From Bacteroidales bacterium UBA1256 (GTDB lineage Bacteria > Bacteroidota > Bacteroidia > Bacteroidales > Paludibacteraceae), in contig DBVU01000088.1 in assembly GCA_002308195.1 (NCBI GenBank), positions 1-23,212 on the forward strand: a DNA stretch of 23,212 bases, in the 5' to 3' direction. The position numbers and the translations under genes were made by a program. The notes under the pieces were generated by a model that worked only from the letters and a program-made list of their open reading frames with translations, had not been told where the DNA came from and searched no databases. This document shows, piece by piece, positions 77 to 5,334 of the stretch (positions are counted from its first letter, which is position 1; each line of letters opens with the position of its first letter).

Positions 77-1327
77 TTAAACCAACTTCAAATTATGGTT
101 CATTTTTTCTTTTTTGGTACGCATATATCGCTCGTTCCAACGATTTGGAGCTATCTCAATCGGCACATTCTCAACGATTTGTATGCCGTAACTCTCTAGC
201 CCGACACGTTTGACAGGATTATTCGTCATTAAGCGTAATTTTAGTGCATGCATCTCGCGCAGGATCTGAGCCCCCACACCATAATCGCGTTCATCCGGAC
301 GGAAGCCTAAGTGCACATTGGCTTCAACGGTATCGTCGCCTTGTTCCTGTAGCTTATACGCGCGTATCTTATTCATAAGTCCTATGCCGCGCCCCTCTTG
401 GTTCATATAGACCAATATACCGCGTCCTTCTGCCTCAATCATCTGCATGGCTTTAGCTAGCTGTTCGCCGCATTCACAACGCTGCGAACCAAATATATCG
501 CCTGTCATACAACTAGAGTGTACACGGCACAAAACCGGTTCGTCGTCACGCCACTCACCTTTGGTGAGTACTATATGTTCCAATCCCGTTGTCAGGTCGC
601 GAAAAGGCGTAAGCATAAACTCACCGTTGGCAGTAGGAAGAAAGACCGTTTCGCCACGTTCCACCAACGACTGTTCACCTTTAACCTCTACCCTTTCTCC
701 TGCCGCCTCTTGCCTTTCTCCTTTGCTCAACCGATAGGCAATCAGGTCCTTTATCGTAATAATCTTCAGATCGAACTTACGTGCCACTTCTTGCAGTTGT
801 GGCATACGCGCCATTGTGCCATCAGGGTTCATTATTTCTATGAGCGCTGCTGCAGGTCTCAATCCCGCTAAACGAGCTAGGTCAACGCCCGCTTCGGTAT
901 GTCCCGCACGCTGCAATACTCCGCCCATCTTGGCATAAAGTGGATTGATATGTCCAGGACGGCCAAAAGTCTCCGGTTTGCTATTGGGGTCGGCCAAAGC
1001 AAGAATCGTAGCCGCCCTGTCGGCAGCAGAAACGCCCGTAGTGCAACCTTCCAGTTTGTCAACCGTCACAGTAAATGGCGTACCGAGCATCGATGTGTTG
1101 TTGGCCACTTGGTGCATCAGGTCCAATTCTGCGCAACGCTGTTCCGTTATAGGACAACAGAGCACGCCACGCCCGTTTTGGAGCATGAAATTGACTTTCT
1201 CGGGAGTGATTTTCTCAGCGGCTATGATGAAATCGCCTTCATTCTCACGATCTTCATCATCTACCACAATTACGAATTTGCCCAACCGAAAATCCTCGAG
1301 AGCTTCTTGTATAGTGTTGATTTGCAT
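77..1327 (-). CDS. ribBA: Bifunctional riboflavin enzyme RibBA: 3,4-dihydroxy-2-butanone-4-phosphate synthase and GTP cyclohydrolase II
   Basis: Cytoplasmic enzyme supplying both precursors of riboflavin: the RibB half converts ribulose 5-phosphate to dihydroxybutanone phosphate, and the RibA half opens GTP. The 416-residue product shows the RibB acidic motif [10 protein letters not shown] near residues 23-32 and [14 protein letters not shown] near 140-153. The RibA half has the zinc cysteines Cys273, Cys284 and Cys286 (SSC...CEC) and NQEGRGIGL near 309-317. I chose the ATG at 1327 because [13 protein letters not shown] matches the usual family start; an in-frame ATG at 1363 would add 12 residues. 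The start lies inside the end of the upstream permease gene (58-base overlap, different frame), implying translational coupling. Oddity: the linker between the two domains (residues about 201-217) is built from seven heptanucleotide repeats and is rich in Gly, Glu, Arg and Lys. No FMN riboswitch is visible. Confidence 0.95.
679..727 (-). repeat. Seven-unit heptanucleotide repeat in the ribBA interdomain linker
   Basis: Read on the plus strand the units are CTTTAAC, CTCTACC, CTTTCTC, CTGCCGC, CTCTTGC, CTTTCTC and CTTTGCT, exactly contiguous over 49 bases. They fall between the RibB and RibA domains and encode the [17 protein letters not shown] region. The same type of array occurs at 4327-4375 in mtaB and at 2774-2801. 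Confidence 0.8.
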
Positions 1328-2775
1328 AATTTCTGTTTCCAGTTTTCGTACTCTTTTTTCCATGCCTCCGGGTTAAACAATGGTGAATCGGTAGCAGCTT
1401 TGTAGGTTAGGAAAATGCCTATAGGCAGCAACACAAACGAACTGAGCCACATTCCTGCCCAACAAGGCCACAGGGCCTCACGCGCCATCTTATAACCCGC
1501 ATTGTCGATTATGTAATAGACAATAAACATAATAACCGAAATCACCACAGGTGCGCCTAGACCACCTTTCCGAATAATGGCACCCAACGGCGCACCGATA
1601 AAGAAGAATATCAGGCACGCAAAAGCCAATGTGAACTTACGGTACAGTTCTATCTCATGTTTGCGGATATAGCGTTGCGAATCGTCCAGCAGAAGAGAGT
1701 TGTATTCTACCTGATCGCGATAATTGCGTGCTTTCTCTTCGGCCATTTCCAGTACCTGGTATCGTCGTTGCACGCTCAGCGCAGCCCACAACGAATCCGG
1801 GTCACACGATTGCTTGACTTCTGATATAGATGGCAGAACGACCGCCTCATAACGATCTTCGCGGCTGAAATAGCGTTCGTCCAGTAGTTTCTCGCTCTGT
1901 TCGCGACTACGCGTCTGCGCTTCTATCTTCACCGAATCGATTGATTCTATCAGTTGTGCCACATTCTTGCTCACGTGTTGATCTTCTAGAATCGATTCAT
2001 CGAAGCGGTTGAAATCAGTCGAGAAATCTATCAGAATCTGCTTGTGGGCAAATGTCTCACGCCGATAAGGGATACTCTGCGTAGTTCCTGTGGCCCGTTG
2101 TTGCGCTTTGTCCAGATTTTCGAACGACTCGCCGTTGATCAGGTCGATGACTAGATATTGCTTGTTGGCACTGGCCGACAAGCGTCCGGTGTCTGCTACC
2201 ATCACTTTGGCATTGGTGAATCCGCCCGAATAGTCATAAATCATCACGTTGAGTAGTTCGCCGCGACGTGTTTTCTCATGCACGTAGATGTGATAACCGC
2301 TGATTTCATCGTAGAATTCTCCGACAGGAATCTGCAGTTCAGGGCTCTTCTGGCGAAGCGAGAAAATGAGTGCCCAGAGTTTCATCTGCGAGCGTGGCAG
2401 CACATTATTGCTAAAGAAGAACGCACCTACGCAGAGAAAGGCGATGGCGATAGTCAATGGTCGCATGATTCGGAAGAGCGAAATACCCGCCGCCTTCATG
2501 GCTGTCAGTTCAAATTTCTCCGCCAGATTGCCAAAGGCAATAATCGAACTAAGCAGTATAGCCAACGGCAATGCTAGCGGCACTACGGATGCGGTAGCGT
2601 AGATAAAGAACTCGGACAAAACGCCGATACTGATTCCCTTCCCCACCAAATCGTTCACATGCATCCACATGAACTGCATCAGTAGGATGAAAATAGCAAT
2701 GAAGAAAGTAGCCAAAAACAGCCCCAAGAAATTTCGGAGCAAATAAATGTCTATTTTCTTTATTATCTTTATCAC
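1270..2775 (-). CDS. lptG: LptF/LptG (YjgP/YjgQ) family lipopolysaccharide-export permease
   Basis: Inner-membrane permease of the LptBFG transporter family, which extracts lipopolysaccharide from the inner membrane. The 501-residue protein has three N-terminal membrane segments (about residues 15-38, 55-82 and 105-123) and three at the C-terminus (about 381-400, 408-425 and 436-458). A large periplasmic part lies between them. It is longer than the proteobacterial forms (about 360 residues) because of a charged, helix-prone stretch at about 255-370, as often seen in Bacteroidetes. The start is GTG at 2775: the upstream in-frame codons are TTA, AGG and a TAG stop, and the family normally begins a few residues before the [15 protein letters not shown] segment. 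The GTG lies inside a heptanucleotide repeat. The last 19 codons overlap the beginning of ribBA. LptF and LptG cannot be told apart with certainty from this sequence. Confidence 0.88.
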
Positions 2776-2801
2776 TAACCTCTAACCTTTAATCTTCAAT
2801 C
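2774..2801 (-). repeat. Four-unit heptanucleotide repeat filling the cdd-lptG junction
   Basis: Plus-strand units ACTAACC, TCTAACC, TTTAATC and TTCAATC run without gaps. They include the GTG start region of the permease gene and end within the cdd stop codon, so all 24 bases between the two genes are repeat. It belongs to the same family as the arrays in ribBA and mtaB. Confidence 0.65.
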
Positions 2802-3282
2802 ATCCTTTCAGGTTCTCACTTACAAAAATCAACGGAAGCAGTTCGGCTGCCGAATCGAAGACATAGGTCTCTTCCTCGCCAAACAAGATCACTTCCATCT
2901 TGCCACCATAACGATGCTCTGTCTCGACCATTACTTGACGACAAGCGCCACACGGCGAACCCGGTTCACGAGTGAAATGGCCTTCTGTGAAGCATGCTAT
3001 TGCTAGTTTCTCGACCGGTTGGTCGGGATATTGTGCGCCCGCAGCAAACAAAGCCGTACGCTCGGCGCACAGACCACTTGGATACGCTGCATTCTCTTGG
3101 TTGCAACCACGTATTACGGTTCCGTTAGCCAGTTTGGCTGCCGCACCTACGTGAAAATGACTATACGGACAGTAACTGTGCTTGGTTTGTTCTTTGGCAA
3201 TGTTGATTAGTTCGCGCTGGTCGTCTGTTAGTTCGTTCCACTGGTATGCACGAACTTGCGTCTTCAAATTGTACTCTTTCAT
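2800..3282 (-). CDS. cdd: Cytidine deaminase
   Basis: Zinc enzyme of pyrimidine salvage that converts cytidine and deoxycytidine to uridine and deoxyuridine in the cytoplasm. The 160-residue product has the full active-site signature. In SGLCAERTA, Cys72 is a zinc ligand and Glu74 the proton shuttle. In PCGACRQ, Cys111 and Cys114 complete the zinc site. SYCPYSHFHVGAA near residues 36-48 is the usual N-terminal substrate-binding motif. The length is typical of the short homotetrameric class, plus an N-terminal extension of about 20 residues. It is the second gene of the minus-strand operon, 27 bases after the repeat protein and 24 bases before the permease gene. No Shine-Dalgarno sequence is visible. 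Confidence 0.95.
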   Translation of the reverse strand: MKEYNLKTQVRAYQWNELTDDQRELINIAKEQTKHSYCPYSHFHVGAAAKLANGTVIRGCNQENAAYPSGLCAERTALFAAGAQYPDQPVEKLAIACFTEGHFTREPGSPCGACRQVMVETEHRYGGKMEVILFGEEETYVFDSAAELLPLIFVSENLKG

Positions 3283-3309
3283 ACTATCGATTGGGTTAAA
3301 TATTTCTGT

Positions 3310-3660
3310 TTATCGCCTGTTACCATACATCAGATGCATCTTTTCTCTCGATCTCCAACCTGCTTGATACTCATGGCTCACAAAATAGATTTTCAGGTCA
3401 GCTTGATACTCATGATCAACAAAATAGACCGTGACATCAGCCTGATACTCATGGTCTGTAAAATACCACTTGCCTTCGTTGCCTTTGGCCTGATAGTCAT
3501 GATCCTCTTTATATACCAACAGGTCAGCCTGATACTCATGATCTACGACATACACTTTGACTTTAGCCTGATACTCATGGCTTACGGAATACACTTTCTG
3601 CGCATTTCCGGTCATAGCAGCTATCAAGAATAGCGCCAAAAGGATGATTCGATTTTTCAT
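3310..3660 (-). CDS. Small secreted 'DHEYQA' repeat protein (resembles DUF6150 family)
   Basis: Product of 116 residues whose function is unknown. It starts with a signal peptide (MKNRIILLALFLIAAMTGNAQ). The rest is six copies of a 13-residue unit of the form VYxVDHEYQAD; the fourth copy is preceded by a three-residue insertion carrying GNEGKWYF. It ends in a basic tail after AGWR. Alternating hydrophobic and polar residues suggest repeated short beta strands. The pattern, including the central G-x-G-x-WYF and terminal AGW, matches what I remember of the Bacteroidetes DUF6150 proteins, where the unit is often xxDYxSxAD; the family name is from memory. I chose the ATG at 3660 because it begins the signal peptide and lies properly downstream of a promoter, whereas the more upstream ATG at 3705 overlaps the promoter. 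It is the first gene of the operon. Confidence 0.75.
   Translation of the reverse strand: MKNRIILLALFLIAAMTGNAQKVYSVSHEYQAKVKVYVVDHEYQADLLVYKEDHDYQAKGNEGKWYFTDHEYQADVTVYFVDHEYQADLKIYFVSHEYQAGWRSREKMHLMYGNRR
3363..3580 (-). repeat. Six direct repeats inside the DHEYQA gene
   Basis: The plus-strand 13-mer CYTGATACTCATG (one copy has TAG for TAC) begins at 3363, 3402, 3441, 3489, 3528 and 3567. The spacing is 39, 39, 48, 39 and 39 bases. It encodes the HEYQA core of each 13-residue unit. The nucleotide conservation exceeds what the protein alone would need, suggesting recent expansion or gene conversion. Confidence 0.85.
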
Positions 3661-3702
3661 AATTTCTCTCGTTATTTGGTTTGACAAACAACTTTGCGGC
3701 TG

Positions 3703-3734
3703 CAAAGTTACAACATTTTTTTTGAATATGCAAG
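3703..3734 (-). promoter_or_regulatory. Bacteroidetes-type promoter for the DHEYQA-cdd-lptG-ribBA operon
   Basis: On the minus strand CTTG (-33) is followed by exactly 20 bases, including eight consecutive A, and then TAACTTTG (-7, TAnnTTTG). The -7 element runs into an inverted repeat, CTTTGC-AGCC-GCAAAG (3692-3707). The distance to the ATG at 3660 implies a leader of about 35-40 bases. Confidence 0.7.
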
Positions 3735-3953
3735 ATTTTTAACAGAAAAATATCGTCTAGGCTTGTACAAGCGTGCTTTTTTTGTGCAACGTGTGCAAAT
3801 ACCATGCCGAAAATTAAAGGGGGTGCGCTCGGTATATTCTCGGTAATGTCTCGTTCACTCCAGGTAATTGTCTCGGTATTGTCTCGGTAATAAATGGTGG
3901 ATATATACATAGTATATATAAAAGTGCGGTTTTTTCGAGCAGAAAAAAAAAGA
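3735..3953. other. Divergent intergenic spacer with palindromes and an 11-bp array
   Basis: Non-coding stretch between two divergent promoters. It holds a perfect 12-bp palindrome GCTTGTACAAGC (3761-3772) followed by GTGC and seven T, the 11-bp repeat array listed separately, and an AT-only inverted repeat ATATATAC-ATA-GTATATAT (3901-3919). I see no credible reading frame or RNA gene. Confidence 0.5.
3828..3893 (+). repeat. Six contiguous 11-bp direct repeats (consensus CTCGGTAATGT)
   Basis: Units in order: CTCGGTATATT, CTCGGTAATGT, CTCGTTCACTC, CAGGTAATTGT, CTCGGTATTGT and CTCGGTAATAA. The phase is exact for 66 bases. Units 4 and 3 are the most diverged. The array sits between the divergent promoters at 3703-3734 and 3954-3985. 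A related three-unit array in the opposite orientation is at 11526-11558. Confidence 0.75.
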
Positions 3954-3985
3954 TTTGCGTATTTCATTTTTTTGTAGTACTTTTG
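3954..3985 (+). promoter_or_regulatory. Bacteroidetes-type promoter of mtaB, nearly leaderless
   Basis: TTTG (3954-3957), a 20-base spacer with seven T, then TACTTTTG (3978-3985). The mtaB ATG begins only 9 bases after the -7 element. A normal start site would therefore give a leader of only a few bases. Confidence 0.75.
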
Positions 3986-3993
3986 CACTCGAA

Positions 3994-5334
3994 ATGAAAA
4001 TTGCGTTTACGACATTAGGATGCAAGCTCAATTTTGCAGAGAGTAGTAGTCTCGGCAAGGCATTGCTCGAACGTGGGCATGAGCGGGCCAAGAAAGGCGA
4101 GCAAGCCGACTTGTGCGTTATCAACACATGCACAGTCACCGATGCCGCCGATCATAAAGATCGGCAGATGATTCATCGTATTCGTCGCCAGAATCCGAAT
4201 GCCATACTCATCGTCACAGGCTGCTATGCGCAATTAAGGCCCGATGAAATCGCACATATTGAGGGTGTTGACTATGTCCTCGGACAGAAAGAGAAGTTTA
4301 ATTTGCCCTCTTTCATAGAGCAAATTGAGTCAAGAGTCAAAAGTCAAGAATCGAAAGGCGAAAGGCGAGAGGCAAAAGTACAGATGTCGCCTATACGCGA
4401 AGTAGATGAGTTTCACGGTGCGTATAGCCGCGATGACCGCACACGCTGTTTTCTGAAAGTGCAAGACGGCTGTAACTATTTCTGTAGTTACTGCACTATC
4501 CCACTCGCTCGCGGCAAGAGCCGTAATCCTTCGATTTCAACGATAGTATCGCAGGCTGAAGAAGCGCTGCGCGGAGGAGCCAAAGAGATTATTCTCTCGG
4601 GCGTAAATATTGGCGATTTCGGGCGTAGCACCAACGAGCGTTTCATCGATTTGCTGCGCGCATTGGACGATATAAAAGAGGCGAACGGCGAAAGAGACTA
4701 TCGCATCCGGATCAGCAGTTGCGAGCCGAACCTTTTGTCCGATGAAATCATTGATTTTGTGGCCAATAGCCGCCATTTCGCACCGCATTTTCATATTCCT
4801 TTGCAGTCCGGCAGCAATGACGTGCTGAAGATTATGGGGCGCCGCTATACGCGCGAATTATTTGCAGAACGAGTGGCGCATATCAAATCCGTTATGCCCA
4901 ATGCCTTTATCGGTGTCGATTGCATGGTTGGCGTACGTGGTGAGACCGACGAATGTTGGGCTGATTATGTCGGTTTCATCGAGCAATTACCCGTATCACA
5001 ACTGCATGTCTTCACTTATTCCGAACGCGCCAATACACGTATGCTAAAAATGGATCTGTATGTTGTTCCGCAGAAAGAGCGTGAACGGCGCAGCAAACAA
5101 CTACATGCCATAAGTGCCAGAAAAACAGAGACTTTCTACCACGAGCATGAAGGCGAACAAGCAATTGTTCTATGGGAAGGGAAAAAAGTAGAAAGTCAAA
5201 AGGTGCTTCCGAGCACACCGGTAAAAGACGAAAGACCACTGATGTACGGATTCACCGAAAACTACATCAAGGTCTCCTGCCCTTACGATAAGGCCAAAAT
5301 TAATACTTTCGAACAGGTAACTATTCGATTCTAG
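3994..5334 (+). CDS. mtaB: tRNA (N6-threonylcarbamoyladenosine-37) methylthiotransferase MtaB
   Basis: Radical-SAM enzyme that adds a methylthio group to t6A at position 37 of ANN-decoding tRNAs. The 446-residue product has three domains. The N-terminal methylthiotransferase domain has cluster ligands Cys10 (TTLGC), Cys46 (INTC) and Cys77 (VTGC). The radical-SAM domain has CNYFCSYC (Cys160, Cys164, Cys167). The C-terminal part is TRAM-like. The short VINTCTVT and GC-rich cluster context favours MtaB over MiaB or RimO, though I cannot align it here. The start at 3994 gives the canonical MKIAFTTLGCK; the in-frame ATG at 3955 would lie inside the promoter. Residues 112-128, between the first two domains, are encoded by a heptanucleotide repeat array, and a shorter array lies at about residues 398-404. 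The stop overlaps the convergent addB-like gene. Confidence 0.92.
   Translation: MKIAFTTLGCKLNFAESSSLGKALLERGHERAKKGEQADLCVINTCTVTDAADHKDRQMIHRIRRQNPNAILIVTGCYAQLRPDEIAHIEGVDYVLGQKEKFNLPSFIEQIESRVKSQESKGERREAKVQMSPIREVDEFHGAYSRDDRTRCFLKVQDGCNYFCSYCTIPLARGKSRNPSISTIVSQAEEALRGGAKEIILSGVNIGDFGRSTNERFIDLLRALDDIKEANGERDYRIRISSCEPNLLSDEIIDFVANSRHFAPHFHIPLQSGSNDVLKIMGRRYTRELFAERVAHIKSVMPNAFIGVDCMVGVRGETDECWADYVGFIEQLPVSQLHVFTYSERANTRMLKMDLYVVPQKERERRSKQLHAISARKTETFYHEHEGEQAIVLWEGKKVESQKVLPSTPVKDERPLMYGFTENYIKVSCPYDKAKINTFEQVTIRF
4327..4375 (+). repeat. Seven-unit heptanucleotide repeat in the mtaB interdomain linker
   Basis: Units GAGTCAA, GAGTCAA, AAGTCAA, GAATCGA, AAGGCGA, AAGGCGA and GAGGCAA are contiguous over 49 bases. 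They encode ESRVKSQESKGERREAK, between the methylthiotransferase and radical-SAM domains. The array has the same length as the ribBA one and shares the peptide SKGER(Q/R)EA with it. Confidence 0.85.
5185..5205 (+). repeat. Three-unit heptanucleotide repeat near the end of mtaB
   Basis: Units AAAGTAG, AAAGTCA and AAAGGTG, encoding the KVESQKV segment in the TRAM-like C-terminal part. This is shorter and weaker than the other arrays but of the same form. Confidence 0.5.

Follow-up and report, generated by a model that had tools for sequence, protein, structure and literature searches.

Heptamer arrays in the window

The stretch of DNA analysed here (the window, 23,212 nucleotides) comprises positions 1-23,212 of the plus strand of contig DBVU01000088.1, assembly GCA_002308195.1, from the Bacteroidales bacterium UBA1256, a member of the Paludibacteraceae. 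Two of its genes carry an array of 7-nt tandem units in the sequence that encodes an interdomain linker. The first, ribBA (77..1363, minus strand), encodes 3,4-dihydroxy-2-butanone-4-phosphate synthase / GTP cyclohydrolase II according to its Pfam and NCBIfam matches (PRK09311.1, 568.7 bits, cut-off 569). The second, mtaB (3994..5334, plus strand), encodes tRNA threonylcarbamoyladenosine methylthiotransferase; it scores above the cut-off of TIGR01579 and contains the domains UPF0004 and Radical_SAM. The true start of ribBA is probably a later methionine, residue 13 of the 77..1363 open reading frame (ORF), because stop codons directly precede that methionine in three relatives (L045, L048 and L108). 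A third array, of the TTAAAGG TTAGAGG type (2775..2804, minus strand), has a lag-7 score of 19/23, equalled in none of 5000 dinucleotide shuffles. It lies outside any linker and fills the gap that separates two ORFs of the minus strand (2800-3282 and 1270-2775), the second of which is permease-like and which we take to be related to LptF/YjgP.

The array in mtaB (4327..4375, plus strand) is a mosaic whose phase is unbroken: three units of the GAGTCAA type (GAGTCAA, GAGTCAA, AAGTCAA) are followed by GAATCGA and then by units of the AAGGCGA type (AAGGCGA, AAGGCGA, GAGGCAA). It codes for ESRVKSQESKGERREAK in the linker between UPF0004 and the radical-SAM domain. Its lag-7 score is 33/42, against a shuffle mean of 13.5, and none of 5000 shuffles was as good. 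Tandem Repeats Finder (TRF) detects it as two pieces (4327-4349 and 4352-4378), and our segment scan delimits it at 4327-4373. The array in ribBA (679..727, minus strand) is decayed and covers 16 residues of the RibB-RibA linker; all seven full units end in AGG, in one phase, and the lag-7 score is 25/42, a value reached by 5 of 5000 shuffles (mean 15.2). Taken alone, it fails both TRF at score 30 and the segment scan (6.5, threshold 15), and it is recognisable mainly through the cleaner arrays that some relatives carry in the same slot (e.g., L081, L084 and L086). The first-pass annotation, which had described period-7 arrays in both genes, is therefore clearly borne out in mtaB and more weakly in ribBA, and its length of exactly 49 bases for each reflects a choice of counting, since the edges are fuzzy. 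It makes no mention of the third array.

That annotation also placed both arrays at the junction of two domains, and the Pfam domains do flank them. By arithmetic, the array occupies approximately residues 213-228 of RibBA, between DHBP_synthase (19-210) and GTP_cyclohydro2 (239-401), and residues 112-128 of MtaB, between UPF0004 (2-97) and Radical_SAM (155-328). In an AlphaFold2 model of MtaB (mean predicted local distance difference test score, pLDDT, 77.5), which we used for a view of the linker only, the first half of the array is predicted to extend the helix 104-121 and the second half to lie in low-confidence coil, with pLDDT values of 54 (residues 121-130) and 46 (131-140). The corresponding model of RibBA (mean pLDDT 54.8) was not used.

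Both linkers contain the peptide SKGER(Q/R)EA, as SKGERQEA and SKGERREA. No common role is needed to account for the sharing. Twenty-one bases make three heptamer units and seven codons, so that, arithmetically, a shift of frame merely rotates the unit. For each of six units checked, the three frames of a given strand of a perfect array all encoded the same cyclic 7-residue peptide; in the case of AAGGCGA, the two strands encode (AKGERRK) and (AFRLSPF). Therefore, the same unit on the same strand of unrelated genes yields the same peptide. Furthermore, since 7 and 3 share no factor, a perfect unit without a stop codon in one frame has none in the other two frames either.

Linker slots of mtaB, ribBA and murG in relatives

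How variable are these linkers among related genomes? The relatives of the mtaB locus considered here are the best 80 of 567 loci, and most are metagenome-assembled genomes (MAGs) of uncultured gut Bacteroidales or Paludibacteraceae, many of them from ruminants. Across the 80 loci, the mtaB linker, which lies between the conserved blocks LGQ.EKF and CFLKVQDG, is hypervariable in both length and sequence. RibBA is present in 36 of 40 relatives' genomes, and its linker differs among nearly all of 37 loci (38 rows with the window; two genomes are present twice, as L002/L088 and L017/L100). MurG, which has an array slot between its two Pfam domains, was matched in 38 of the 40 genomes, and 30 of these, G001 among them, provided rows. 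Every row has an open, in-frame linker (80/80 for mtaB, 38/38 for ribBA and 30/30 for murG). On a comparison that the first-pass annotation had proposed, of whether relatives carry the same linker peptides without heptads, the MtaB and RibBA linker peptides were found to differ between relatives.

A slot was counted as period-7 when its lag-7 score was at least 12, with flanking windows of equal size as controls. After removal of L079, the 27-aa segment of which was poorly placed, 23 of 79 mtaB linkers reached this score, compared with 18 of 1472 flanking windows; the corresponding counts were 14/30 and 11/910 for murG, and 9/38 and 4/516 for ribBA. At lags 4-6 and 8-11, only 0-2 of the 79 mtaB linkers scored 12 or more. 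The linkers of all three genes are thus period-7 sites far above their flanks, and a DNA repeat is turned into a protein spacer there, as had been suggested for the window. A regular expression for a slot in DapB recovered only 5 of 30 loci and was dropped, and our listing of DapB arrays also missed several loci owing to the picking of ORFs.

The units found in the slot vary widely. Those of mtaB include GAGTCAA (L001), TCACCAA (L019 and L024), GTCGAAA (L025), TCAGCCA (L044), TCTCCAA (L043), GAAGATT (L023), GAGGCGA (L061) and CTCCCGA (L063), and other loci have a short linker (L006, L020 and L022) or, by eye, different repeat DNA (L015 and L054). In MurG, 18 of the 30 genomes keep a 30-aa segment of identical length while the units differ, and at least six unit families occur there, including AATTAAA, GTCGAAA, GGCGAAA, GAGTCAA, AATCAAA and GGACAAA.

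These slots could be no more than ordinary hypervariable linkers, in which low-complexity peptides rich in K, E, S and Q happen to look periodic in DNA. The weakness of the RibBA array in the window and the scores below 12 in most mtaB slots would fit such an explanation. We nevertheless regard it as very unlikely, given that lag 7 alone stands out among the lags compared and that intergenic arrays share the period. It is harder still to credit the arrays with phase variation, in which the gain or loss of one unit would switch an enzyme off or on. Steps of 7 nt do shift the frame, but the carriers, judged by Pfam content, are housekeeping enzymes (RibBA, MurG, DapB, UvrA and GlmS), the arrays are short and imperfect, with a median of 33 nt for coding arrays, and the linkers are open and in frame in every row of the three genes.

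Some slots hold repeats of other kinds. Short palindromic repeats of the GGTCTTTCAGGCGAAGCCGGTCTT and TCAGTCCGAAGGACGGTCTG types are found in the RibBA linkers of L092, L093, L101, L105, L106 and L110 and in the MurG linker of L252; by eye, they recur between species and resemble repetitive extragenic palindromic (REP) sequences or Rickettsia palindromic elements (RPEs). In the linkers of L085 and L096 (RibBA) and L076 (MtaB), a heptamer array is followed by an inverted heptamer array, so that a hairpin is possible on paper. In L033, a record titled Oscillospiraceae, the mtaB linker and the next 600 nt are identical to those of the Paludibacteraceae record L031, and L033 is probably a mis-binned contig.

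Comparisons of close relatives indicate how quickly the arrays change. L025 and L044 share 95.4% identity on both flanks of the mtaB linker, yet one carries GTCGAAA and the other TCAGCCA; likewise, L028 and L042, with approximately 96.7% flank identity, carry GTAGAAA and TCTCAAA. Other close pairs, such as L043 and L058, retain their unit, and the DNA of L019 and L034 is nearly identical apart from one clean gap of 21 nt. A step of 21 bases also separates the MtaB segment of the window (64 aa) from that of L001 (57 aa), and the RibBA segment of the window (69 aa) from that of L081 (62 aa). The first-pass annotation had anticipated whole 21-base steps, and for such pairs it was right; as a general rule, however, the prediction is not supported. 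Of 18 mtaB pairs whose flanks are 88 to 99.5% identical, 7 have linkers of equal length, 1 differs by 21 and 10 differ by other values between 3 and 30, and the 21-base step is therefore one of several. The unit swaps in close pairs imply that an array can be replaced as a whole on short time scales.

A dispersed population of arrays in related genomes

We surveyed genome-scale samples of 400, 400, 210, 400 and 274 kb (approximately 1.7 Mb) from five relatives, the window's own genome not being among them, with five dinucleotide shuffles of each sample as the null. The samples contained 75, 31, 46, 55 and 21 period-7 arrays (228 in total) and the shuffles none, whereas 0-16 arrays were found at each of the other single periods between 4 and 14; an excess of period 7 over shuffled sequence, which the first-pass annotation required, is therefore present in these relatives. 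When arrays with more than 95% of their length inside an ORF were counted as coding, 117 were coding, 58 intergenic and 53 partial. In the two genomes checked, ORFs make up approximately 92% of the sequence, so that arrays remain under-represented per base in coding DNA, although the number within genes is large. Units that are stop-free on both strands account for 44 of the 117 coding arrays but only 5 of the 58 intergenic ones (8264 of all 16384 heptamers have this property), and the GTCGAAA-type arrays of the sample comprise 10 coding and no intergenic or partial arrays.

Proteins with internal arrays numbered 75, and a Pfam scan was performed on the 37 from G001 and G014, of which 31 had a match. 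The carriers, named from their Pfam domains, include UvrA, AcrB-type pumps, DapB, CoaE, MurG, MurF, GlmS, QueA, MiaB, FabD and a TsaD-family protein. Coding arrays had been expected to be enriched at domain boundaries. We examined this in 25 of the 31 matched proteins, leaving out MatE, MBOAT, 2-Hacid_dh, a TPR protein, HHH_3 and BatD, for which the stretch was not located, was too weak or was ambiguous. The expected enrichment did not appear: Pfam stretches contain 18 of the 30 arrays, compared with 21.4 (standard deviation 2.1) expected from coverage. Arrays are therefore also found inside domains, presumably in loops. The idea of a DNA repeat converted into a protein spacer thus holds, and extends much more broadly than two genes, yet it is not tied to domain junctions.

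The position of an array in a protein is related to its orientation. The sense strand is the more hydrophobic of the two in 19 of 24 arrays that start within the first 35 residues, compared with 19 of 90 internal arrays (Fisher P = 2.5e-7), and by eye the N-terminal arrays resemble signal peptides (e.g., LSIFNFQFSTC and LLALSSLLLALS). At L111:11388-12973, two neighbouring genes each start with an A-rich and then a T-rich heptamer array, and their apparent signal peptides seem to be built from two opposite arrays. Heptamer arrays also stand just ahead of the C-terminal ends of the genes at L122:14713-16050, L187:13594-15297, L188:1609-4317 and L188:4337-8932; from their motif, these ends resemble type IX secretion tags.

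How widely is the trait distributed? Near mtaB, the 56 loci whose MtaB is at least 74% identical contain 180 period-7 arrays in 1008 kb (115 coding), and 24 more distant loci contain 51 in 400 kb (20 coding). At least one array occurs at 16 of these 24 loci, and the trait therefore extends beyond the nearest relatives. Nevertheless, it is not universal, as 400 kb of the more distant relative G040 (L077) contained only three period-7 arrays, none of them coding. That sample instead had 31 arrays of period 11, of which short ORFs held 3, and 17 of period 8, of which 5 were in ORFs; most of these arrays are intergenic.

Each genome has its own repertoire of units. In G001, 152 pairs of arrays share a unit, against a null maximum of 9, and in the five genomes together the counts range from 8 to 152, whereas the null maxima are 3-12, or 4-16 under a null that favours common words; all five genomes exceed the null. 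In counts that include overlapping matches inside one array, the GTCGAAA triple is matched 82 times in G001 but is absent from 194 of 198 genomes drawn from its order; among 40 close relatives, it has 0-161 matches, and the triple AAAGGCGA has 0-52. The seven genomes that carry GTCGAAA in the mtaB, ribBA or murG slot have a median of 60 matches elsewhere, compared with 4 in the 33 that do not (P = 0.001); for GGCGAAA, the medians are 18 in four genomes and 1 in 36 (P = 0.03).

Local slippage alone might have produced such arrays: a chance seed would expand in place through polymerase slippage that prefers 7-nt steps, and purifying selection would remove the products outside loops. MacGregor (2015; PMC4679880) cites Mrazek (2007) for heptanucleotides being the commonest class of long repeat in most genomes examined, for which a polymerase explanation was proposed. 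Clean in-phase steps such as that between L019 and L034 are what slippage would leave, and the flanks of GTCGAAA arrays in different genes show no obvious likeness by eye. The sharing of units within genomes, however, greatly exceeds the null, and the abundance of a unit spans 0-161 among 40 relatives. Given this sharing, independent slippage would be insufficient unless unit bias were extreme and also differed between sister species, whereas copying suffices. We therefore consider slippage by itself rather unlikely.

A function at the level of DNA or RNA seems less probable again. Arrays near gene starts would bind a cold-shock, S1 or nucleoid protein, the coding copies being by-products; a binding role of this kind was proposed for TAACTGA arrays by MacGregor (2015; PMC4679880). 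Indeed, 66 of the 111 arrays that are not fully coding end no more than 60 nt upstream of an ORF start, with the purine-rich strand as the gene strand in 48 of the 66, and the window has a spacer array of its own (2775-2804). This proximity to starts was counted without a shuffled-position control, and half of the arrays are inside genes. Moreover, the units differ between close relatives, which would be odd for a conserved binding site.

Two further repeats in the window are of other periods. A small minus-strand protein at 3310-3705 (Pfam DUF6150) contains 13-residue HEYQA repeats with a DNA period of 39, and a degenerate period-11 repeat (CTCGGTAATGT) lies at 3828-3891, upstream of mtaB.

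Origin of the arrays and comparison with known systems

How might the arrays of the window have arisen? We think it probable, on balance, that they are members of a dispersed, lineage-specific population of heptamer arrays that is typical of gut Paludibacteraceae MAGs and that spread by copying and slippage, filtered by what the host protein tolerates. In the relatives sampled, each genome has a unit repertoire of its own, present in many copies, and the genome of the window would have one too. An array might land or grow in a gene and, by arithmetic, would give the same cyclic 7-residue peptide in any frame, so that only the total length must fit. Selection may then retain those arrays whose peptide is harmless or useful, as their distribution suggests: sense strands rich in A and purines would supply hydrophilic loops and linkers, and T-rich sense strands at the N-terminus would supply cores resembling those of signal peptides. 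The array in a slot could subsequently be replaced wholesale by other units on short time scales, as was observed in a few close pairs. Ectopic recombination or template switching between arrays, together with slippage in place, may account for the copying. More speculatively, and with appreciably less confidence, we suggest that this copying activity continually replaces the sequence of loops, interdomain linkers and signal peptides in core enzymes with lineage-specific arrays; frame-indifferent repeat DNA might then supply a sizeable share of the group's disordered sequence, which would turn over faster than the folded parts.

Several observations weigh against this proposal. No gene for array spread was found, and Ku, considered as a spreading agent, was not found in any of the 18 relatives searched. 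No live change of length or unit was seen within one strain, each species being represented by one MAG consensus. The unit dialects are those of relatives, and the window's own genome lies outside the samples, in which ORFs were called by a simple home-made program. The tests of slot against genome abundance (P = 0.001 and 0.03) take no account of kinship among the genomes. Counts of 69-111 matches also occur in four genomes that lack the unit in the slot, and of the four GGCGAAA genomes one has none elsewhere. A 12-mer test of 15 slots from five genomes gave a weaker result than these pattern counts: the genome's own sample was the richest in only 6, one of these with the gene inside the sample, and the mtaB unit of G028 is far commoner in the sample of G018. 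The MurG slot was selected because G001 carries an array there, and 56 of the 79 mtaB linkers score below 12 at lag 7, that is, have no array. Because slots also occur without an array or with palindromic repeats, a slot may tolerate anything. Finally, the difference in orientation is not significant among the 22 arrays in which the opposite strand has no stop in any frame (hydrophobic in 1 of 2 N-terminal and 3 of 20 internal arrays, P = 0.34), and stop codons may therefore contribute to it.

Simple repeats with a unit length not divisible by three are usually expected outside genes. Here, approximately half of the arrays are in genes, including those of cell-wall, cofactor, DNA-repair and tRNA-modification enzymes, and a simple rule explains why a 7-mer can serve as a spacer in a protein: whatever the frame, a given strand encodes one peptide. 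The exchange of units at 95% flank identity amounts to a natural experiment in linker replacement, and the arrays offer a test case for the spread of a dispersed repeat without an obvious agent. Among the matches listed in our search of the open-licence literature, no title or abstract start dealt with heptamer arrays as exchangeable linkers or signal peptides.

The first-pass annotation had likened the heptamers to the short tandemly repeated repetitive (STRR) sequences of cyanobacteria, and these are the right kind of comparison. STRR sequences have defined, recurring heptamer units; in the relatives studied here, the abundance of a unit varies between genomes. STRR sequences are also mainly intergenic, which the present arrays are not, since 117 of the 228 are coding. 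Our arrays also resemble a known system of 25-residue domain repeats, in which coding repeats have spread within and between genomes; those repeats, however, lie in ORFs without an assigned function, some encoding surface lipoproteins, whereas the present arrays are spacers in core enzymes.

Another close parallel is with the TAACTGA heptanucleotide direct repeats that MacGregor (2015; PMC4679880) described in Beggiatoaceae, Cyanobacteria and some Bacteroidetes. Like the arrays reported here, they are genome-dispersed tandem heptamers of patchy taxonomic spread that encode two cyclic peptides, one from each strand; where they may sit in ORFs is governed by the stops within the unit, and insertion between the subunits of modular proteins was suggested to be tolerable. 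In that account, however, the system has one unit and is mostly intergenic just upstream of starts, with 24 of 169 sets in or overlapping ORFs, mostly at protein ends. In our case, there are many units per genome (those of the window are of the GAGTCAA, AAGGCGA and AGG-ending types rather than TAACTGA), about half of the arrays are in ORFs, the carriers include conserved enzymes, and units are swapped between orthologues. Long simple repeats, STRR sequences and the G-rich heptamers of Xanthomonas and Nostoc likewise share with our arrays a period of 7, degenerate tandem units and a genome-wide distribution, and a period of 7 above a composition-matched null was found in all five relatives' samples. 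According to PMC4692102, the G-rich heptamers are over-represented in non-coding and under-represented in coding DNA; of our arrays, 117 of 228 are coding, although coding DNA is depleted of them per base. Like the RPEs described in PMC10969869, recurring units are dispersed, in frame and translated inside many unrelated ORFs of the relatives; the RPEs, however, are palindromic units of approximately 150 bp, whereas the present arrays are frame-indifferent tandem 7-mers of approximately 33 nt, and the palindromic repeats in some RibBA slots resemble RPEs more than the heptamers do. We class the arrays as heptanucleotide long simple repeats (PMC4679880, PMC4692102) that act like in-gene dispersed repeats such as RPEs (PMC10969869). 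This variant is distinguished by the presence of many units per genome, the location of about half of the arrays in genes and the fast exchange of units at fixed slots.

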